Notes under the pieces: model-generated
Told to the model about the DNA's origin: nothing
What the model saw: the letters and a program-made list of their open reading frames with translations, nothing else
The model's database searches: none
Shown: positions 5,490 to 21,466 of the stretch, one piece after another
Layout of the letters: the number at the start of each line of letters is the position of its first letter
Numbering within the stretch: position 1 is the stretch's first letter
Made by a program: the position numbers and the translations under genes
Origin: a virus
Strand: one strand, 5' to 3'
Length of the DNA stretch: 26,778 nucleotides
Virus record (IMG/VR): IMGVR_UViG_3300023108_002682
Location: 1 to 26,778 of that record

Positions 5490-6236
5490 CTAATTTGCCT
5501 TGCAGTGCTTTGCGTATAGGCTACAAGTATGATCGTTTATCATATCCATTTTGTTGCCCATTATGCCATTCCAACGATCCATTATTTTTTTAATGAAGTC
5601 AACTTTGACAACCATTCCGTTAGAGTTGATATATTTTTCTGTCCCTGCATGCTTGAATCCCATAAAAGCTGGGGGTACCATAGTAACAATATCATTATTG
5701 TTAACCCAGCGATAATGTGTTTTATCTTTCATACTATCTGCAAAAACAGCATCGCCTGCCCGTGGTGATCCAAATGTATGAAGTTCTACTGGATCAGGTA
5801 GTGCATCGTCTTCCCAGGCACGGCTTGCCATAATTGTAATCATTGCTGCACCTAAGCTATGACCAGTAAACCATAAGTTACGAGAATCACCATTTAATGC
5901 AACTAGATCTTCATATATCATTTCCCAAATATCATCTGCTTCTCTTTTAAAACCTTTGTGAACTTTGCCTACAGTTTCGCTATCTTCTTTCCTAGCATCT
6001 AAATCTGCTAGCATATCATTAAAATTGCCCGGTTCAGTGCCTCTACAAACAAAAACAACATCGGCATCGCTTTCAAATCGGTATGCTTGTGCTCCGTCTC
6101 TGTCATAATATTCTAGTGTGTGAAATCCAAATTCTTCTACAGATTTTTTTGCTTCTTCTGGCTCTTGGTATACAAATTCAGATAGTTTTGCTAATATGTG
6201 GCCTCTCCCCGAGACCCGTAGTGATTTCATATTCAT
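5490..6236 (-). CDS. Class 3 (alpha/beta-hydrolase) lipase
   Basis: 248 residues from the ATG at 6236, chosen because GGGAGAG lies 6 bases upstream; the open frame extends slightly further to a TTG. The fold is that of fungal-type class 3 lipases: VVFVCRGTEPGNFNDML provides the oxyanion region, then the nucleophile elbow TGHSLGAAM (Ser127), the acid Asp182 in VNNNDIVTMVPP after HTFGSPRAGD, and a C-terminal His236 in INDHTCSLY. It should hydrolyse acyl esters or phospholipids. No signal peptide is seen, so it would act in the cytoplasm or be carried by the virion. A late promoter box lies just upstream, pointing to a lysis-stage or particle role. Confidence 0.85.
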   Translation of the reverse strand: MNMKSLRVSGRGHILAKLSEFVYQEPEEAKKSVEEFGFHTLEYYDRDGAQAYRFESDADVVFVCRGTEPGNFNDMLADLDARKEDSETVGKVHKGFKREADDIWEMIYEDLVALNGDSRNLWFTGHSLGAAMITIMASRAWEDDALPDPVELHTFGSPRAGDAVFADSMKDKTHYRWVNNNDIVTMVPPAFMGFKHAGTEKYINSNGMVVKVDFIKKIMDRWNGIMGNKMDMINDHTCSLYAKHCKAN

Positions 6237-6259
6237 TGGTTGCTCTCCCGTTCCCAAAT

Positions 6260-12934: not shown

Positions 12935-13276
12935 ATGGATAAACGAACACACGACGAAATTGTCAGTGAAATTAAACTTCTTATTGATGAAAAAGTAAAG
13001 CCAGCAGTAGCCGGGCACGGCGGCAATATTGAGTTCTTAGAATTTAATAATGGAAATTTGCTTCTTGAACTAGGAGGAGCATGTAGTGGTTGCGCCGGTA
13101 GCACAATGACTTTAAAAATGGGCATAGAGAATATGCTTATGCATTATGTTCCTGAAATTAAAACTGTAGAAGCTCAAGATGATCCGATGAGCACAGTTGA
13201 TCCATTTTATACATCAATGGATTTTTACAATTGGGACGACGAAGATGACGCTGATACTAGTATAAATTCTGATTGA
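12935..13276 (+). CDS. NifU C-terminal-domain (Nfu-type) Fe-S cluster scaffold
   Basis: 113 residues. Residues 1-80 are a complete Nfu domain: VKPAVAGHGGNIEFLEF, then LLLELGGACSGCAGSTMTLK with the cluster-binding Cys50 and Cys53 (C-x-x-C), then MGIENMLMHYVPEIKTVE. The last 30 residues are an acidic Asp-rich tail not typical of the family. It should hold a 4Fe-4S cluster at a dimer interface and pass it to apoproteins. It heads a three-gene operon with heme oxygenase and a bilin reductase, both of which need reduced ferredoxin. Supplying clusters to a ferredoxin is the natural inference. Confidence 0.85.
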   Translation: MDKRTHDEIVSEIKLLIDEKVKPAVAGHGGNIEFLEFNNGNLLLELGGACSGCAGSTMTLKMGIENMLMHYVPEIKTVEAQDDPMSTVDPFYTSMDFYNWDDEDDADTSINSD

Positions 13277-13283
13277 TTTAGCA

Positions 13284-13826
13284 ATGAATAATTTAAAAGA
13301 ACTCACTAAAGAACAACATAAAAAAGCAGAAAAATCCAAATTTGCAAAAAAACTTGTAACTGGTAATCTTACTGCATCTGAGTATGCCTGTTACCTATAT
13401 AATATGTGGTTAGTATATGCTTGTTTAGAAACTAAGGCAACAGAACTTGGTGTATTAGATAGCATAGAAGATATATGCAGAACTCGGTTCATTTATTCAG
13501 ATATGCTATCTATAGGAAGCAAAAAAGAACTTAAATTAAAGTCTTCTATAGATTATATTGAATATATTAAAAGCATTAGCAGTCCTAAAAAAATACTAGC
13601 TCATTGCTATGTTCGGCATATGGGAGATTTATCAGGCGGGCAAATTATTGCAAAAAATCTAAAAGATAAATTTCCTGTTCGTTTTTATGAATTTGAGCAA
13701 GATGTTATAATCCTAAAAGATAAATTTAGAGAAAAACTTGACGATAGTATGGCACCTGAAGCTACGATAGCATTTGGTTTTGCAGCTGATATTTTACAGG
13801 AGATGGATCACATTGATCTTACTTAA
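13284..13826 (+). CDS. ho1: Heme oxygenase
   Basis: 180 residues, close to the catalytic core length. LKELTKEQHKKAEKSKFAKK carries the proximal heme ligand His12. HCYVRHMGDLSGGQIIAKN (around residue 112) is the distal-helix signature with G-D-L-S-G-G. It cleaves heme to biliverdin IX-alpha, CO and iron using reduced ferredoxin. The gene follows the NifU-like gene after 7 bases and overlaps the bilin reductase start. No Shine-Dalgarno is evident, so translation may depend on the upstream gene. The product biliverdin is the substrate of the next enzyme. Iron release could be an additional benefit to the phage. Confidence 0.92.
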   Translation: MNNLKELTKEQHKKAEKSKFAKKLVTGNLTASEYACYLYNMWLVYACLETKATELGVLDSIEDICRTRFIYSDMLSIGSKKELKLKSSIDYIEYIKSISSPKKILAHCYVRHMGDLSGGQIIAKNLKDKFPVRFYEFEQDVIILKDKFREKLDDSMAPEATIAFGFAADILQEMDHIDLT

Positions 13827-14394
13827 TAACCTAAAGAATGAACTGGTATCTCATTTTAACCCAAACGACTCTGTGCCTGTTCAAGATTTTGGTTTTGAGC
13901 ATGGCAAGTTCGTTAACGAAAAATTTAGATGGGCACACTACGAATATTACACTACTGATAAGGTAGAAATTGTACATTTGGTTATTATGCCACATGCAAA
14001 ATCAACTTCTCCGATCTTTGGCTTTGATGTAATTAATATTAGTGGCATTCTTACCGGAATGTTTTTTGATCTTACTCCAGTTGATGAAAGAGTCTTTAAA
14101 TTGCCAGTAATAGGCGATCCTCGGCCTAGACCTGAATGGAGTGGTTTTTTTAGTGAAAACTTTGTGTGTTGTAAGCCAAAAAATCTAAATGAAGTAATGA
14201 CTGTTGTGCCTGTTTTGAAATCATATCTGCAAGGCTTACCTAATTTAAAAACTACAGACGTAAGCAACAAACATCAAGCTTATATTGACGGACAAAGGAA
14301 AAATCCTCAGACTCTAAAAATGTTGTCTGCACATATTGGCAAAGATAAAGCCGAAGATTATTTTTTCAATCATCTTTGGCCTGACATAAAATGA
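13813..14394 (+). CDS. Ferredoxin-dependent bilin reductase (PcyX/PebS/PcyA family)
   Basis: 193 residues. HLVIMPHAKSTSPIFGFD aligns with the PcyA segment from His88 to Asp105 with identical 17-residue spacing (here His55 and Asp72). AHYEYY matches the Glu76 region, PEWSGFFSENFVCCKP matches the P-x-W-x-x-x-F-S segment, and the C-terminal LWPDIK carries the late conserved Asp. The frame is open upstream to a TTG at 13774. I chose the TTG at 13813, with AGGAG 10 bases before it, because it gives a normal N-terminus; there is no in-frame ATG. It reduces biliverdin made by the adjacent heme oxygenase. Context (a phage probably not infecting cyanobacteria, paired with ho1) favours the PcyX type, but the subfamily needs a phylogeny. 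Confidence 0.85.
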   Translation: MILLNNLKNELVSHFNPNDSVPVQDFGFEHGKFVNEKFRWAHYEYYTTDKVEIVHLVIMPHAKSTSPIFGFDVINISGILTGMFFDLTPVDERVFKLPVIGDPRPRPEWSGFFSENFVCCKPKNLNEVMTVVPVLKSYLQGLPNLKTTDVSNKHQAYIDGQRKNPQTLKMLSAHIGKDKAEDYFFNHLWPDIK

Positions 14395-15572: not shown

Positions 15573-15582
15573 ATATTTATGA
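15573..15582 (-). promoter_or_regulatory. T4-type late promoter box (thermonuclease)
   Basis: TCATAAATAT on the minus strand, 26 bases before the thermonuclease start; divergent from the curli-cluster box at 15620. Confidence 0.5.
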
Positions 15583-15619
15583 AAAAATTAACCTTGTATA
15601 GTGTTAAAATATTACAAAG

Positions 15620-15629
15620 GTTAAATACT
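15620..15629 (+). promoter_or_regulatory. Late-type promoter box of the curli-like cluster
   Basis: GTTAAATACT, followed by TAGGAG and the ATG at 15643. It is the only promoter-like signal I find for the whole 15643-21466 cluster. Confidence 0.45.
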
Positions 15630-15642
15630 TAGGAGAAAAATT

Positions 15643-16101
15643 ATGAGGGTTTTGATAGGGAGTTTGCTTTGCACAATTGTTGCAGCGCATGCACAAGCTG
15701 ATCTAGTATGGGGTTTCAAAAGCCCAGCATTTCATTTTGGCAATGGATATAGTACACATGTGCTTAGTGCAGAGCAATTGAAGTTTAATGCGCAAGAAGA
15801 TCTTAGAAAACAAGCCGAAGCAGAAGAAGCTAGATTAGAGCGTGAACTAGAAAATTCAGTATTAAATAAATTTATTAGAAATTTAGAATCAAGAATTTAT
15901 GCAACGCTTAGTAAACAAATGGTAGATGCAATGTTTGCTGATTGTACAGATAATTGTGCTACTAGTGGTTCAGCAGAAATTGAAAACAACATTATTACAT
16001 GGACTAAAGATACACTTACAGGTACTATAACTTTAGAAATAAATGGTCCTGACGGTACTACAGAAATTACTATACCAGGAGCGGGAGAATTTAATTTCTA
16101 A
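15643..16101 (+). CDS. csgF: CsgF-like curli assembly protein
   Basis: 152 residues. A signal peptide (MRVLIGSLLCTIVAAHAQA) is followed by DLVWGFKSPAFHFGNGYSTH, the counterpart of the mature CsgF N-terminus (F-x-N-P-x-F-G-G-N), which in Escherichia coli plugs into the CsgG barrel. An extended charged helix follows (ENSVLNKFIRNLESRIYATL), then a beta-rich C-terminus ending in F as in CsgF. A Cys pair (FADCTDNCATS) is not typical of the family. It should form the outer neck of the secretion pore and couple fibre nucleation to it. RBS TAGGAGAAA; coupled to csgG by TAATG. Confidence 0.85.
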   Translation: MRVLIGSLLCTIVAAHAQADLVWGFKSPAFHFGNGYSTHVLSAEQLKFNAQEDLRKQAEAEEARLERELENSVLNKFIRNLESRIYATLSKQMVDAMFADCTDNCATSGSAEIENNIITWTKDTLTGTITLEINGPDGTTEITIPGAGEFNF

Positions 16102-16922
16102 TGATAAAAAAATTATTAATAAGTTTATCCTTTTTAGTTTTAGCTAGTTGCACAAGTTATGATATGATGCAAGATGTAAAAGAGTCAGTTGGTCCTCCGC
16201 AAGTACAAGGTCACCAAATTCATCTTGACGCAATACCTCCTATCGATGGTCCAAAAATTGCAATTGGTGTGTACAGTTTTTTAGACAAAACTGGACAAAG
16301 AAAGCCTAGTGACAAACTTGCCAATCTTAGTTCAGCAGTGACTCAAGGTGCAGAAGTTTGGGTAATACAAGCTTTACAGGAAGTAGGGAATGGAAGTTGG
16401 TTTGACGTGGTCGAGCGTATAGGCATGGATAATTTAATTAAAGAACGACAACTAATAAGAAATACTAGAGAAGTATACGACCGATCTAGCCCAAACGGGC
16501 CAGAACCATTAGATCCATTAATGTTTGCTGGTCTTTTGTTAGAAGGCGGAATAGTCGGGTATGATAGTAACATAGCAACCGGGGGTATGGGCGCTCGCTA
16601 TTTAGGACTTGGTCTACAGGACGAGTATAGGATGGATAGAGTTACTGTATCGATGCGTTTAGTAAGTGTACAAACCGGGAGAGTTCTAGTAAGTGTTGCA
16701 ACAGAAAAAACAATAGCAAGTTATAGAAGCGGTGGCGACATTTTTAAATTTCTAGATCTCGGTACACAGATTATAGAAAGCGAAGTAGGATGGTCTATAA
16801 ATGAACCTGTCAATTATGCAGTTAGAGCTGCAATTGAAGCGGGCATTGTAGAGCTTATACTTGCAGGGGAAGATAAAGGTCTTTGGAAATTTTCTGAAGA
16901 AATTTTAATTCATAATCATTAA
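16101..16922 (+). CDS. csgG: CsgG-like outer-membrane curli secretion lipoprotein
   Basis: 273 residues, the usual CsgG length. The N-terminus is a lipoprotein signal with lipobox LASC (Cys17). The family core follows: IAIGVYSFLDKTGQRKPSD, LSSAVTQGAEVWVIQALQEV, GSWFDVVERIGMDNLIKERQ and LIRNTREVYD, with the transmembrane-hairpin region around GGIVGYDSNIATGGMGARYLG and VSMRLVSVQTGRVLVSV. It should assemble into a nonameric ring and 36-strand barrel that lets unfolded curlins out. Every main block looks intact, so a working pore is likely. Its periplasmic partner CsgE is not in the window. Confidence 0.93.
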   Translation: MIKKLLISLSFLVLASCTSYDMMQDVKESVGPPQVQGHQIHLDAIPPIDGPKIAIGVYSFLDKTGQRKPSDKLANLSSAVTQGAEVWVIQALQEVGNGSWFDVVERIGMDNLIKERQLIRNTREVYDRSSPNGPEPLDPLMFAGLLLEGGIVGYDSNIATGGMGARYLGLGLQDEYRMDRVTVSMRLVSVQTGRVLVSVATEKTIASYRSGGDIFKFLDLGTQIIESEVGWSINEPVNYAVRAAIEAGIVELILAGEDKGLWKFSEEILIHNH

Positions 16923-16935
16923 TAGGGAGATACAC

Positions 16936-17676
16936 ATGAAAGCTTTAATAATAGGAGGCTTAGCGTCTTTAGCGGCAATAACTGTTGCTTTTGCAAATGA
17001 AATATATGTAAATCAAGCAGGCGCCGGTCTTACGTTAACAATTACACAAACTGGTCAAGACAACGAGTTTGGTAATAGTACTACAGATGCAGTCTTAAAT
17101 GGTACCGACACAACTATTACACTCACACAAACTGGTGATTTTAATACTGTAGATGCAACAATCAAAGGTATAACTTTTACAGGTACTTGGTCATTTATCG
17201 GCGATAACAACACTTTGGATTTACTGTGTAGTAGTGCTGCAACAGGCGAGTGTGATTCAGCTACTATGACTATATCTAACACAGGCGACGATACTGACTA
17301 CGTAATATATGTAGGAGAAACCAGTTCAGCTGATAATGCAACAGTGTCGTTTACAGTAACTGGTGACGGCGATGCTGTGTATGCTGAAATCGACGGTGAA
17401 AGTGCTGCGGTTACTGTCACAAGTGACAGTAGTGCATCGTTAAGCGCTACTAGCTCTAGCTTATTATCTCCAGTATCACTAAGCACAAGTGCAGGAGGTA
17501 ATTTATATGCTATTAATGTTGACGGTGACGGCGACATCGCAGGACATACTGTTAACATAGATGTAACAGGCGGTGGCAATTCAATCATCGTAACTCAAAG
17601 TGGCATATACGACAATGATTTAGATCTAACTTTAGTTGGAGATGATGGCACAATTACAATTACACAAACTGATTAA
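16936..17676 (+). CDS. Curlin-repeat protein 1 (CsgA/CsgB-like fibre subunit)
   Basis: 246 residues, GGGAG ribosome site. A signal peptide (to about residue 20, MKALIIGG...AFA) is followed by NEIYVNQAG. Curlin-type strand repeats LTITQTGQDNEF, ITLTQTGDFNTVDATI, IIVTQSGIYDND and ITITQTD are spaced 22-27 residues apart, with a Ser/Thr/Asp-rich middle where the repeats degenerate. It is acidic, Gly/Asn/Gln-rich and nearly free of Lys and Arg, as expected of an amyloid subunit exported through CsgG. Two Cys in the middle are unusual for curlin. The last codons overlap the start of the FecR gene by 35 bases. Confidence 0.8.
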   Translation: MKALIIGGLASLAAITVAFANEIYVNQAGAGLTLTITQTGQDNEFGNSTTDAVLNGTDTTITLTQTGDFNTVDATIKGITFTGTWSFIGDNNTLDLLCSSAATGECDSATMTISNTGDDTDYVIYVGETSSADNATVSFTVTGDGDAVYAEIDGESAAVTVTSDSSASLSATSSSLLSPVSLSTSAGGNLYAINVDGDGDIAGHTVNIDVTGGGNSIIVTQSGIYDNDLDLTLVGDDGTITITQTD

Positions 17677-18787
17677 ACTATTTTGTTGTTTAGCTTTGGC
17701 TCCTTTAGCATTAGCAGATGCAGGCGAAATAGGAAAAATCAAAGGTAGTGGCGTACTAGAACGTGGCCGAGACGTAATAGACGGCACTACCGGTGTGACT
17801 GTTCAAAGCATGGATACTGCTGTGACTGCTCGAGGGCAAATGCGTATTGATTTTATAGATGATACAAGAGTAGATATTACTGAACACAGTAGATTACTTA
17901 TAGATGATTTTGTTTATGACCCTGACGCAGGAACAGGAGCATTAAGCTTAAAAGCAACATTAGGTACAGTCAGATATGCCAGTGGCCAAATAGCAAAAAA
18001 TAATAGACAGCAGGTAAAAATTAGAACCCCTAGTGCTACTATCGGAGTTAGAGGTACAGACTTTATCATGGTAGTAGATGAAATAGGCGGAAGTATGATA
18101 ACCTTATTGCCTAGCTGCGATGTAAGTGGTGATTGTTACACAGGTGAAATAACAGTAGAAACAGACGCAGGATTTGTAGTAATGAATCAAGCGTTTCAGA
18201 CAACAATGGCCAGAATAAGTAGCCAAGCACCGTCTAAGCCTCTTATTCTTGATATAGACGAACGAATGATAAATCAGCTTATTATTTTACGTAAAAAATC
18301 TCCTTACGAAGAAATTGAAGATGAAATTAGAGTTAGAACAAAAAATTTATTTGATTTTTTAGGATTTGATTTTCTTGAAGAATTTGATGACTTAGATGTA
18401 AATAATTTGAATACTGACGATATTTGGCACACTCAATTAGATGAAACAGATTATACATTTGCCGATGTCATGTACGACATGCTAGATATGTTAAACAAAG
18501 CATTAGTAGATGCATTACGTGACGAACTTGCTATTCAAAATGAAACTTTTTTTACACAACGGCCAACAGGTTTAGATATAAACACAGGAATTTATTATGA
18601 AGAGTTTTCTAATTCATATTTTATTAGGCGAGAAGATAATTCAGCAAATAATGTTTTTCAGTTAACTTTAGATAAAAACACTAGCTATACTTTAGATTTA
18701 ACACAGCAGGATTGGACTATTTATGGATATACAGTGGGTGTCGGTAATGATAGCTGTATCATTATTACTCAGCGGGAAGATTGGTAA
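17642..18787 (+). CDS. Secreted FecR-domain protein with a curlin-like C-terminus
   Basis: About 381 residues; ATGs at 17642 and 17645 are both possible, with TTGGAG just before. A signal peptide (ending ALAPLALA) sends it to the periplasm. Residues about 30-190 are a FecR domain: DVIDGTTGVTVQSMDTAV, then RIDFIDDTRVDITEHSRLLI, ALSLKATLGTVRYASGQ, and the hallmark RTPSATIGVRGTDFIM. A charged helical middle follows. The end (YTLDLTQQDW and then GNDSCIIITQ, 22 residues apart) looks like a curlin strand pair. It lacks the short cytoplasmic helix and transmembrane segment of anti-sigma FecR proteins. Position between the two curlins and before a CHASE2 cyclase suggests a periplasmic ligand or fibre-linked sensor. 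Confidence 0.8.
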   Translation: MMAQLQLHKLIKLFCCLALAPLALADAGEIGKIKGSGVLERGRDVIDGTTGVTVQSMDTAVTARGQMRIDFIDDTRVDITEHSRLLIDDFVYDPDAGTGALSLKATLGTVRYASGQIAKNNRQQVKIRTPSATIGVRGTDFIMVVDEIGGSMITLLPSCDVSGDCYTGEITVETDAGFVVMNQAFQTTMARISSQAPSKPLILDIDERMINQLIILRKKSPYEEIEDEIRVRTKNLFDFLGFDFLEEFDDLDVNNLNTDDIWHTQLDETDYTFADVMYDMLDMLNKALVDALRDELAIQNETFFTQRPTGLDINTGIYYEEFSNSYFIRREDNSANNVFQLTLDKNTSYTLDLTQQDWTIYGYTVGVGNDSCIIITQREDW

Positions 18788-19409
18788 TGCAAATGAAATT
18801 TATATTTCACAAATTAGTGACGACTTAAGCTTAGAAATACAACAGCGTAGTCAAGATAATTATGTTTCTTTAACCGGCTCCGGAGACGTTAATGATATTA
18901 TAATATACCAAGGTATACATGCAGATGGAACTATAGATGTTGACGAAACAGGTGGTCATGAAGCATATTGGACAGTGACCGGAGATAGTAATGATCTATT
19001 GAGCTCTCAAACAGATGAAAATAGAGCCGGCGGCGGCGGAGCCCCTCATCATTTAGCTAATATAATAAACGGCGACAATAACCTAGTCAATCATACGCAA
19101 AGGGGCAAAGCAGGGCACGATGGTTTCATTGAAATACAAGGAAATAACAACACTGTAGATTTATATCAACGGGGTAATGGCGGCCAGCAATGGGCTGACA
19201 TAGTATTAAATGGAAATGGCCATGTAATTGACTCTAGTCAACGCGGTACTATGTCACACTCTCTAGCTGTTGATTTAACAAACGGCGGCGGCGCATATAC
19301 ATTTACAAGCACACAAACTACAAATAATAATACTACATCTAAATCTTATAGCCTTACAGGAACTTGTACAAACTCATCTGGATGTGCAATAAATATATCA
19401 CAAAACTAG
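18723..19409 (+). CDS. Curlin-repeat protein 2 (possible nucleator)
   Basis: 228 residues from the ATG at 18723, or 220 from the Met at residue 9. A short signal peptide precedes NEIYISQISDD, almost the same mature start as curlin 1 (NEIYVNQ). Repeats: LEIQQRSQDNYVSL, IIIYQGIHADGTID, NLVNHTQRGKAGHDG, NTVDLYQRGNGGQQWADI and HVIDSSQRGTMSHS, at spacings of about 22-24. It is richer in His, Gly, Asn and Arg than curlin 1, with QRG in place of QTG, so the two are distinct subunits, as CsgA and CsgB are. The first 65 bases overlap the FecR gene in another frame. Confidence 0.78.
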   Translation: MDIQWVSVMIAVSLLLSGKIGNANEIYISQISDDLSLEIQQRSQDNYVSLTGSGDVNDIIIYQGIHADGTIDVDETGGHEAYWTVTGDSNDLLSSQTDENRAGGGGAPHHLANIINGDNNLVNHTQRGKAGHDGFIEIQGNNNTVDLYQRGNGGQQWADIVLNGNGHVIDSSQRGTMSHSLAVDLTNGGGAYTFTSTQTTNNNTTSKSYSLTGTCTNSSGCAINISQN

Positions 19410-19417
19410 GAAAATTT

Positions 19418-21466
19418 ATGAAATTCTTATCGCATTGGACTTTAGCTTTTATAACGGTAATTGGTGTATTTGTATTTCATTTATCTAATAATTTTGTAGT
19501 AGAAACAATGCGGTTAAAAAGTTTTGACTTGCTACAGCAAAATGACAATATTATACATAGTAAAGATATTGGCATAGTAGAAATAGACGAAGCAAGCATA
19601 GAAACATATGGCCAATGGCCGTGGAAACGAACAGTGCTTGCAGATTTAATATGGCAACTACGAGAAGCAGGGGCAGGAATAATAGTCCTGCCTATGCTTT
19701 TTTCCGAATATGATCGATTAGAAGGAGATCAAGATCTATTAGACTCTCTTGTAGGAAACGGTGTAGTAATTGCACAAAACGGCAGTTTTACAGCTAATCG
19801 CAATGGTGTGCCACGTGGCGTGGCAAAAATAGGAGACCCATTGCCCTTTCTATTCGAATGGGACGGGATGCTAGGGCCTATACCTGAATTTGGAGATAAT
19901 GCAGACGGAGTAGGTGTATTAAACACAGTGCCAGAAATTGACGGAGTTGTACGACGTTTACCGATGTTAATGCGGATAGGCAACGATGTGTATCCTAGTA
20001 TTGCAATTGAAGTGATTAGGGTTGCAATGGGCGAACAAAGTTATCAAGTAAAAAGTTCAGAAGGCGGAATAGATAAAATGCGGGTGCCAGGCTATCCGCC
20101 TATACAAACTGACTCAACAGGTAGGGTATGGTTAAGATGGAATAAGACTTTTGATACAGTAAGTGCTAGCAATCCTGCCCAGTTTAGTAAACTAAAAGGA
20201 AAAACAGTGATAATTGGCCCTACAGCAGCCGGCATATCTACAATTATAGCATCGCCTTTAGGGGGTCAACAAGTATACATGCCTGCCGCAGTAAGCTTAC
20301 AAAATATACTCGATGGCGATACGATCAGTCGACCTTGGTGGGCACAGTTTTTTGAACTGTGCATAACATTGCTAATAGGCTTTTTTATTGTTTTGATTGG
20401 TAGGTTTACTCCATATTGGCTAGCAGGTGGCAGTTTGATTGTTTTTGCAAGCGCTGTAGTTTTTGGTGTATGGTATGCATGGAGTAATTATTTGTATTTG
20501 CTAGACGGGACTATGCCTTTGATAGCTGTTGTGCTTGTCGGCCTTCATAGTGTGTTTACAAGATTTGTACTGGAGTTTTTTGAAAAACAAAAAATTAAAA
20601 AACAGTTTGCAGGTTATGCATCTCCAACTGTGGTTAGGTTACTACAAGAAAATCCAGAATTAATAAAGCATGGCATGAAAAAAGAAGTTAGTATTTGTTT
20701 TTCTGATCTTCGTGGCTTTACTCCATTAGGTGAAAGTTTTGGAGATGATGTACAAGGACTTACTAAAATTATGAATGGTTATATGGATAGCATTACGCAA
20801 CCTATTCTCGATTCAGATGGTATGGTAATAAAGTATATAGGGGATGCAAGTATGCATGTACACAATGCGCCAACAGACGATGTAAATCATCCAGATACAG
20901 CAGTGCGTACAGGTTTAAAAATGTTAAGAGCTGTTGAAGAATTTAATAAAAAAATTACAGCAGAAGGAAGACCACCGGTTGGAATGGGAGCTGGCATTAA
21001 TACAGGCCTTGGCTATCTTGGAGAAATGGGGTCAACAAAAAGACACTCATACGATGTGTTAGGTGACGCTGTTTCCACCGCAGCAAGAATTGAATCTAAA
21101 TGCAAAGAGTACGGATGCCTTTTACTAGTAGGCGGAGCTACTGTTGAAAAATGTAAAGAAGATTGGTTTTTCTTGAAAATAGATGACCTAGCAGTTAAAG
21201 GCAAATCAGTCGGCATACCTATATATACTGTACTAGACTATGTTACTCCTGCATACCTAAATGCTAAAAAACAGCACGAAAAAATGCATGAATTATATAG
21301 AGCACAGCAGTTTGACAATGCAATTGAACTTTGTAAATCACTCAAAACAGAGTTTGAAGGCCGTATGCAAGACTATTACGCTATGTGGATAGAACGTTGT
21401 GAATATCAAAAAACGCAAGATCTACCTATAGACTGGAATGGCGTGTTTATAGCTACAACAAAGTAA
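19418..21466 (+). CDS. CHASE2-domain class III adenylate/guanylate cyclase
   Basis: 682 residues from the ATG at 19418, chosen because AGGAAAA precedes it. TM1 at about residues 5-25; CHASE2 periplasmic sensor domain, about 30-305 (IGIVEIDEASIETYGQWPW, then DGVVRRLPMLMRIGNDVYPS); three more hydrophobic segments, about 310-385; class III cyclase domain from about 424. Metal-binding Asp residues are present in CFSDLRGFTPLG and KYIGDASMHVH. In YDVLGDAVSTAARIE (around residue 545-557) the usual transition-state Asn is Ser, while the Arg is kept. A C-terminal helical tail follows. It should sense a periplasmic cue and make cAMP or cGMP. FecR plus CHASE2-cyclase neighbours are known in bacteria. 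Confidence 0.9.
   Translation: MKFLSHWTLAFITVIGVFVFHLSNNFVVETMRLKSFDLLQQNDNIIHSKDIGIVEIDEASIETYGQWPWKRTVLADLIWQLREAGAGIIVLPMLFSEYDRLEGDQDLLDSLVGNGVVIAQNGSFTANRNGVPRGVAKIGDPLPFLFEWDGMLGPIPEFGDNADGVGVLNTVPEIDGVVRRLPMLMRIGNDVYPSIAIEVIRVAMGEQSYQVKSSEGGIDKMRVPGYPPIQTDSTGRVWLRWNKTFDTVSASNPAQFSKLKGKTVIIGPTAAGISTIIASPLGGQQVYMPAAVSLQNILDGDTISRPWWAQFFELCITLLIGFFIVLIGRFTPYWLAGGSLIVFASAVVFGVWYAWSNYLYLLDGTMPLIAVVLVGLHSVFTRFVLEFFEKQKIKKQFAGYASPTVVRLLQENPELIKHGMKKEVSICFSDLRGFTPLGESFGDDVQGLTKIMNGYMDSITQPILDSDGMVIKYIGDASMHVHNAPTDDVNHPDTAVRTGLKMLRAVEEFNKKITAEGRPPVGMGAGINTGLGYLGEMGSTKRHSYDVLGDAVSTAARIESKCKEYGCLLLVGGATVEKCKEDWFFLKIDDLAVKGKSVGIPIYTVLDYVTPAYLNAKKQHEKMHELYRAQQFDNAIELCKSLKTEFEGRMQDYYAMWIERCEYQKTQDLPIDWNGVFIATTK

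Follow-up and report, generated by a model that had tools for sequence, protein, structure and literature searches.

The window analysed here is a 26,778-nucleotide stretch of virus DNA (IMG/VR record IMGVR_UViG_3300023108_002682). At positions 15643-21466 it carries six intact, co-directional open reading frames, which an earlier note had read as CsgF, CsgG, a curlin, a secreted FecR protein, a second curlin and a CHASE2-cyclase (Table 1). Pfam searches bear out this reading: CsgF, CsgG, curlin 1, FecR, CHASE2 and Guanylate_cyc all pass their family cut-offs, with only curlin 2 falling just short (20.0 versus 20.7 bits). The intact CsgG lipobox (LASC) and the N-terminal CsgF plug motif (FKSPAFxxGNGYS) that the note described are both present. 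Start sites are probably shifted slightly from those of the raw reading frames for FecR (17642) and for the cyclase (19418), the latter lying 8 bases past the curlin 2 stop. A nearly identical contig (L006) bears the same intact genes, which argues against an assembly artefact. Sigma-70 sites in the intergenic stretch upstream of csgF were no more than in shuffled sequence, so no promoter was assigned there; promoter and terminator scans remained at chance level, and the window yielded no Rfam matches or tRNAs.

Table 1. Features of the curli-type cluster and its upstream region
Feature	Position	Strand	Description	Evidence
Intergenic stretch	15575..15642	.	68 bp, from SNase-like gene (minus strand, divergent) to csgF; candidate promoter region	sequence reading
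csgF	15643..16101	+	secreted CsgF homologue, 152 aa, N-terminal plug motif FKSPAFHFGNGYSTHVLS	PF10614 45.0 bits, cut-off 25.8
csgG	16101..16922	+	outer-membrane lipoprotein pore, 273 aa, lipobox LASC	PF03783 161.5 bits, cut-off 20.8
curlin 1	16936..17676	+	secreted curlin-repeat protein, 246 aa, Cys98/Cys106 conserved, end ITQTD	PF07012 26.7 bits, cut-off 20.7
FecR-domain protein	17642..18787	+	signal peptide, FecR domain (residues about 28-190), helix, C-terminal beta segment with curlin-like strand last	PF04773 36.5 bits, cut-off 24.0
curlin 2	18723..19409	+	variable secreted curlin-repeat protein, 228 aa, C-terminal CTNSSGCAINISQN	PF07012 20.0 bits
CHASE2-cyclase	19418..21466	+	CHASE2 sensor, transmembrane helices, class III adenylate cyclase (putative), 682 aa	PF05226 146.3 bits (cut-off 26.3); PF00211 Guanylate_cyc 58.7 (21.9)

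The source is a T4-type, pelagimyophage-like marine myophage: the IMG/VR virus record encodes a cyanomyophage-like NrdA (70.8% identity), a tail lysozyme and an Mtd-like fibre protein. The gene order csgF-csgG-curlin-fecR-curlin-cyclase is that of the pelagiphage T8SS module (PMC9599517). This module was described in 2020-2022 (PMC7029224, PMC9004378, PMC9599517), its curlins, FecR and cyclase having been identified in PMC9599517, and the present cluster is thus a further member of it; the report of curli-related genes in pelagimyophages that the earlier note mentioned is real (PMC7029224). The Pelagibacter myovirus and podovirus clusters (PMC9599517, PMC7029224) and that of Melnitz (PMC9004378) resemble the window in the six genes, their order, the lack of CsgE and alphaproteobacterial affinity. 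However, the phage differs from Melnitz and HTVC008M, with CsgG only 47-52% identical, and lacks the histidine kinase that precedes csgF in the podovirus clusters. To the published module we add the curlin-like FecR tail, the two-cassette origin, the Ser-for-Asn change in the cyclase and the absence of cyclic-nucleotide (cNMP) receivers. A text search found no mention of CHASE2 in PMC9599517, PMC7029224 or PMC9004378, and we found none of a curlin-like FecR tail in the literature on the pelagiphage and Melnitz curli clusters.

Cultured phages Melnitz and HTVC008M share the six-gene order of the window, as do 51 of 92 related sequences; contig borders truncate most of the rest. All six genes are under purifying selection (median dN/dS 0.11-0.15). 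This gene-order comparison, which the note had proposed, upholds its description of a secretion cluster of curli type with a pair of fibre subunits. The literature is divided over whether such phages can make curli; two curlins under selection within a complete, conserved order favour curli-making by these phages.

Both fibre subunits hold up as curlins. Curlin 1 exceeds the family threshold, and curlin 2 is identified through its homologues (24/31 match the curlin family at E<=0.01) and through the match between the two curlin profiles (E 3e-27). The AlphaFold model of curlin 1 is all-beta (pLDDT 84); a structural search with it returned no significant match and no convincing curli or amyloid match, the CsgA fibril appearing only at E 2.7. 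Cysteines are strongly conserved, with C-x5-10-C in 64 of 66 curlin 1 homologues and a C-terminal Cys pair in all 47 curlin 2 homologues. In HTVC008M, L043 and L044, curlin 2 additionally carries a PA14 domain.

A profile of three phage CsgG proteins matched E. coli CsgG structures (1.6e-63), and the CsgF plug motif is conserved across phage homologues. The constriction residues of E. coli CsgG, Tyr51 and Phe56, are replaced by Ser and Leu in the CsgG of the window. The same change is found in alphaproteobacterial CsgG, which rules out the altered pore loop as a phage adaptation. The window therefore resembles the E. coli system (csgBAC/csgDEFG) in its CsgG pore lipoprotein, its CsgF with plug motif and its curlin-repeat subunits, but differs in the replaced pore-loop aromatics, the conserved curlin Cys pairs, the added FecR and CHASE2-cyclase genes and the missing CsgE cap. 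The absence of CsgE noted earlier was confirmed and extends to 15 related phage records (0/16 in total). Alphaproteobacterial curli are likewise reported without CsgE (PMC9599517), and in E. coli CsgE is described as not essential in work cited by PMC7029224; its absence thus does not exclude membership of the curli/type VIII class.

A search of bacterial genomes with phage CsgG gave eight matches, mostly phage-like contigs within MAGs, and bacterial curli operons were therefore sampled by Pfam family instead. The alphaproteobacterial curli loci (L092-L117, L121-L123) share the csgF-csgG-curlin order and the Ser/Leu pore loop with the phage. Unlike the phage module, they have neither FecR nor a CHASE2-cyclase gene within 14-20 kb around csgG.

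The FecR domain was detected in 39/39 homologues (AlphaFold pLDDT 82). In a structure search, its fold matched the PupR signalling domain and those of further anti-sigma regulators of the FecR type; a weaker match was 5ix9, a "cell surface anchoring domain" (E 0.02; rmsd 1.1 A across 61 columns). Although the phage protein has the periplasmic signalling fold of PupR in common with these regulators, they are transmembrane proteins with a cytoplasmic anti-sigma part, whereas the phage FecR is modelled as a signal peptide plus secreted domain with no cytoplasmic part.

The C-terminus of FecR resembles that of the curlins. The motif [ILVF]x[ILVF]xQ lies within 5 residues of the stop in 55 of 56 FecR proteins, 64/66 curlin 1 and 29/47 curlin 2 proteins, versus 23/1317 in the background. 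In profile alignment the FecR tail matched curlin 2 (P 0.0024, above all 30 column shuffles) and gave no significant match to curlin 1; when the columns of the tail profile were shuffled, one of 15 shuffles recovered a similar number of curlins. Given such weak profile-level similarity, the beta-strand ends may instead have converged. The shared end motif suggests docking of FecR onto the fibre. On this reading the sensor part looks attached to the fibre itself, a link of which we found no report. Such a tail would give a concrete reason for FecR and the cyclase to travel with fibre genes.

FecR lies within about 4 kb of 18 of 40 alphaproteobacterial CHASE2 genes and beside none of 29 bacterial csgG loci, a count that leaves out three from a single phage-containing MAG. 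The recurrence of the pair apart from csgG indicates that the phage module joins two bacterial cassettes. A FecR/CHASE2 pair also sits within a biofilm-regulating operon of Burkholderia (PMC5192318); there and in the alphaproteobacteria, as in the phage, a secreted FecR-domain protein adjoins a CHASE2 sensor, but in Burkholderia LysM accompanies the FecR domain and a histidine kinase provides the output, whereas the phage output domain is a cyclase. With CsgG controlled and the outlier L090 left out, CHASE2 distances correlated with FecR-domain distances (0.39; 0/2000 permutations), a relationship not seen with curlin 1, CsgF or the cyclase's own catalytic domain; a clade split including L090 isolated L090 alone. 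The FecR column with the strongest link to sensor type was residue K126, counted from the ATG at 17642. Mapped on trees, sensor type required 5 changes with the FecR domain and 6 with CsgG. As this leaves FecR and CsgG poorly distinguished as sensor partner, the distance correlation is suggestive only, and shared ancestry may explain much of it. The "signalling arm" of the earlier note stands as an association, seen also in bacteria without curli.

Collectively, we lean, somewhat beyond even confidence, towards a minimal, fibre-making type VIII (curli) operon encoded by the phage, of the kind found without CsgE in alphaproteobacteria and coupled to a sensing pair of FecR and CHASE2-cyclase. 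With CsgG as outer-membrane pore and CsgF as plug, both curlins would exit through the CsgG-CsgF pore and polymerise as a fibre, likely displayed on the infected cell, with curlin 1 as the conserved subunit and curlin 2 as a variable, ligand-facing one. The folded FecR domain would be kept in the periplasm while its curlin-like tail attaches to the fibre or to the fibre subunits, and the inner-membrane CHASE2 cyclase would read the FecR domain and set cyclic nucleotide output. Such fibres may help infected cells to adhere or aggregate, or may keep other phages out; the authors who cultured Melnitz saw no clumping (PMC9004378), which counts against the fibre reading. If the tail does dock, marine phages carry a compact fibre-assembly sensor.

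Fibres might instead be made with FecR and the CHASE2-cyclase as merely co-located cargo, as could be expected from bacterial FecR-CHASE2 pairs sitting apart from curli genes, from unrelated genes (e.g. PagP-like or a barrel-like protein) filling the slot between curlin 2 and the cyclase in other phages, and from the indecisive sensor trees. We consider this unlikely, since FecR is flanked by the curlins in almost every locus of sufficient length, and the curlin-like end strand of phage FecR is absent from the 18 bacterial FecR proteins adjoining CHASE2 whose ends were read. An import pore, in which CsgG without its CsgE cap admits nutrients or siderophores into a starved host through its outer membrane, with a secondary part for the fibre genes, has also been raised (PMC7029224, PMC9599517) and accords with the missing CsgE. 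It is very unlikely: two curlins, CsgF and the FecR tail, all maintained by selection, would go unexplained, and the pore loop is of the ordinary alphaproteobacterial curli-export type with no phage-specific change. Pinholins act in the inner membrane, and CsgG, unlike them, is an outer-membrane lipoprotein. This mismatch, the near-constant company of curlins and FecR with csgG under equal purifying selection, and the two Melnitz proteins above the curlin cut-off (26.0 and 21.8 versus 20.7 bits) where csgA and csgB were assumed absent make it very unlikely that CsgG and CsgF have been repurposed as a gated pore, of pinholin or secretin type, that helps to time lysis with the other genes accessory, as the discoverers of Melnitz proposed from structure prediction and gene position (PMC9004378), even though a CsgE gate is lacking.

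Within the favoured fibre-and-sensor reading, a bolder and rather doubtful version would make FecR a chimeric tether, its domain serving as a periplasmic retention plug and its tail passing through the CsgG pore into the fibre, giving the CHASE2 cyclase a direct reading of fibre export. Hosts with no known class III cyclase or cNMP-binding receiver would then acquire from the phage both a fibre sensor spanning the envelope and a cyclic-nucleotide messenger. No cNMP-binding domain was found in the window or the 15 related phage records, and 40 of 41 genomes of a SAR11-like family lack both cNMP-binding and class III cyclase domains. The "reporting by cAMP" suggested in the earlier note is weakened accordingly, as it has no known receiver in these phages or genomes. 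Docking of the FecR tail on the fibre, if real, would raise the question of what role cyclic nucleotide signalling plays in SAR11-type cells, where no known cyclase or receiver was found.

The cyclase combines sensor and catalytic domains. Its catalytic part keeps the two metal-binding Asp and the adenine-specifying Lys and Asp of class III adenylate cyclases (FSD, KYIGD, YDVLGD), and in the transition-state N-x-x-x-R element it retains Arg but has Ser for Asn (VSTAAR). The product is thus a putative class III adenylate cyclase with Asn missing from its catalytic signature, and the same Ser occurs in 22 of 26 aligned phage cyclases.

Six intact open reading frames, all on the plus strand, occupy positions 15643-21466 of the window, and five of their products exceeded the curated Pfam cut-off (CsgF; CsgG; a curlin; FecR; and CHASE2 with a class III cyclase). 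The remaining product, curlin 2, scored 20.0 bits, just below its cut-off of 20.7; 24 of 31 curlin 2 homologues fit the curlin family at E ≤ 0.01, and comparing the curlin 1 profile with that of curlin 2 gives a match at E = 3e-27. The csgF and csgG genes overlap by 1 base, 13 bases separate csgG from curlin 1, FecR overlaps both curlin 1 and curlin 2, and the cyclase ATG (19418) lies 8 bases after curlin 2, so that the overlaps and short gaps give an operon-like layout. Upstream, an SNase-like gene is divergently oriented. This IMG/VR virus record also encodes a ribonucleotide reductase resembling those of cyanomyophages (70.8% identity), together with a tail lysozyme and a tail-fibre-like protein whose N-terminal domain is of the Mtd type; its GC content is 32-39%, and the curli genes show no sharp GC contrast.

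A CsgG scan of viral contigs gave at least 559 confirmed relatives, of which 80 were kept. The full six-gene order was present in 51 of 92 sequences (window counted), most of the others ending at contig edges, and three of the 92 carried FecR through cyclase with the second curlin not recognised. Median dN/dS was 0.11-0.15 for each of the six genes, both curlins included. The cluster is no chance assembly of genes, and the curli-type cluster reported in the earlier note stands on intact reading frames, Pfam matches and conserved order.

It is a further example of an already published module type. Pelagimyophages were described with csgF/csgG and a curli-associated protein (PMC7029224), and podo- and myophages with curlins, FecR and adenylate cyclase in the same order, for which an alphaproteobacterial origin and a role in superinfection defence or sibling capture were proposed (PMC9599517). 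Our DNA search recovered the cluster in four isolates of the cultured phage Melnitz and in phage HTVC008M. In the Melnitz record all six genes carry annotations and follow the window's order; that of HTVC008M names four, the FecR and second-curlin genes being labelled hypothetical. The authors who described Melnitz (PMC9004378) considered csgA/csgB to be missing, observed no clumping and suggested that the proteins act as a pinholin or secretin. Both Melnitz curlins exceed the Pfam cut-off (26.0 and 21.8 bits), which speaks against the claimed lack; the first HTVC008M curlin had no Pfam match in the same scan. A text search found no mention of CHASE2 in these three papers.

The infected cell would make a curli fibre without CsgE, which was not found in the window or 15 phage records, and such fibre formation is likely. 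The phage CsgG profile covers E. coli CsgG nearly end to end. At the E. coli pore-loop aromatics, Tyr51 and Phe56, phages mostly carry Ser or Ala and Leu, respectively. We rejected a phage-specific change, since sampled alphaproteobacterial CsgG mostly has Ser/Leu too, indicating an inherited state. Curlin 1 is the better conserved subunit, with a Cys pair in 64 of 66 homologues; its AlphaFold model is all-beta (pLDDT 84), and Foldseek found no significant structural match to it. Curlin 2 varies more than any other gene of the cluster (mean column identity 24%), and its C-terminal Cys pair occurs in 47/47 homologues; 18 of 41 bacterial curlins have no Cys. The PA14 domain on some curlin 2 proteins hints at ligand binding.

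FecR would link this fibre to the CHASE2 cyclase. It comprises a signal peptide, a FecR domain (detected in 39/39 homologues), then a long helix and finally, at the C-terminus, a beta segment, the tail. Its Foldseek matches were the PupR periplasmic signalling domain, similar anti-sigma regulators and, more weakly, a structure labelled "cell surface anchoring domain" (5ix9, E = 0.02). The motif [ILVF]x[ILVF]xQ lies within five residues of the stop in phage FecR (55/56), curlin 1 (64/66) and curlin 2 (29/47), compared with 23 of 1317 background ORFs; no CsgF or CsgG protein had it. In profile alignments the tail matched curlin 2 (P = 0.0024, better than 30/30 column shuffles), its alignment with curlin 1 being not significant. 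Searched against ORFs, the tail profile had curlins as six of its ten best non-FecR matches; of 15 column shuffles, 14 yielded two or fewer and one yielded four, that one also placing more curlins in the top 40 than the real profile. On these counts, alignments and shuffles, the shared strand ending is solid, and common descent of tail and curlins is likely but not proven. The FecR 3′ end overlaps the curlin 2 start, and in several phages the conserved stretch exceeds the overlap, so overlap alone would be an insufficient explanation. Docking of FecR on the fibre is plausible.

At 18 of 40 alphaproteobacterial CHASE2 loci (two of the 18 marginal), a gene for a FecR-domain protein lies no more than about 4 kb away, with neither csgG nor curlins seen at these loci. 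A Burkholderia operon that regulates biofilm has FecR-LysM adjoining a histidine kinase with a CHASE2 sensor (PMC5192318). At bacterial csgG-match loci, FecR appeared at two loci and no others, both from a single Rhodobacteraceae MAG with phage-type clusters on its contigs; with that MAG's three loci excluded, the count was 0/29, four of the 29 (L095-L097, L117) being unmatched by the phage CsgG model. Because FecR lies beside CHASE2 but not beside bacterial csgG, the phage module looks like two cassettes put together, one for curli and one for FecR-CHASE2. Phage-type curli clusters occur on contigs binned into one Rhodobacteraceae MAG (L084, L086, L088), one Flavobacteriaceae MAG (L087) and Pelagibacter MAGs (L089-L090), and can mislead claims about bacterial curli.

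CHASE2-region distances correlate with FecR-domain distances when CsgG is controlled (0.39, 0/2000 permutations), and not with those of the FecR tail, CsgF, curlin 1 or the cyclase's own catalytic domain. Maximum-likelihood trees required 5 label changes for FecR, 6 for CsgG and 8 each for curlin 1 and CsgF, making the FecR/CsgG contrast smaller than by distances. Analogy makes FecR-CHASE2 contact likely, and these covariation statistics do no more than suggest it.

In the cyclase (19418-21466) and its aligned relatives, sensor and catalytic domain recombine independently: relative to the window, the sensor and catalytic part are 30% and 82% identical in viral sequence L058, and 52% and 35% in HTVC008M. 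Metal and adenine-pocket residues are retained; Ser replaces the transition-state Asn here, as it does in 22 of the 26 sequences aligned, so cyclase activity is not assured. Neither the window nor 15 phages yielded a cNMP-binding domain. In the family of a Pelagibacter-titled MAG (putatively "SAR11-like"), 40 of 41 genomes lack cNMP-binding and class III cyclase domains; the exception is that MAG itself, whose cyclase match lies on its curli-cluster contig. The cAMP reporting suggested in the earlier note is thus doubtful in SAR11-type hosts, although the host of the window's phage may differ.

Coordinates of additional features in the window and in compared viral sequences (L-numbers; L003 is HTVC008M)
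Feature	Location	Remark
Class 3 lipase gene	window 5490-6257	minus strand
NifU-like gene	window 12935-13276	precedes heme oxygenase
Heme oxygenase, then ferredoxin-dependent bilin reductase	window 13284-14394	reductase PF05996, 52 bits
Curlin 2 with N-terminal PA14 domain	L003:10638-11963, L043:11661-12950, L044:11869-13158	above Pfam cut-off
500-680 aa protein	L046:11917-13968, L069:13541-15379, L010:8774-10759, L058:12795-14291	between curlin 2 and cyclase
PagP-like protein (lipid A acylation)	L058:12369-12725	phrog_3600; between curlin 2 and cyclase

The bilin reductase shares only 25-28% identity with pcyA-type genes from cyanophages and Pelagibacter phage Mosig, and with the heme oxygenase would form a phage bilin-making cassette. 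In other phages the slot between curlin 2 and cyclase varies in length (0 to 5 kb). Often it contains the 500-680 aa protein, which appears to have a signal peptide and has a barrel-like Phe at its C-terminus; none of three copies scanned matched Pfam, and the two of these also scanned against PHROGs had no match there. ORFs resembling the PagP-like protein occur in L046, L069, L079 and others.
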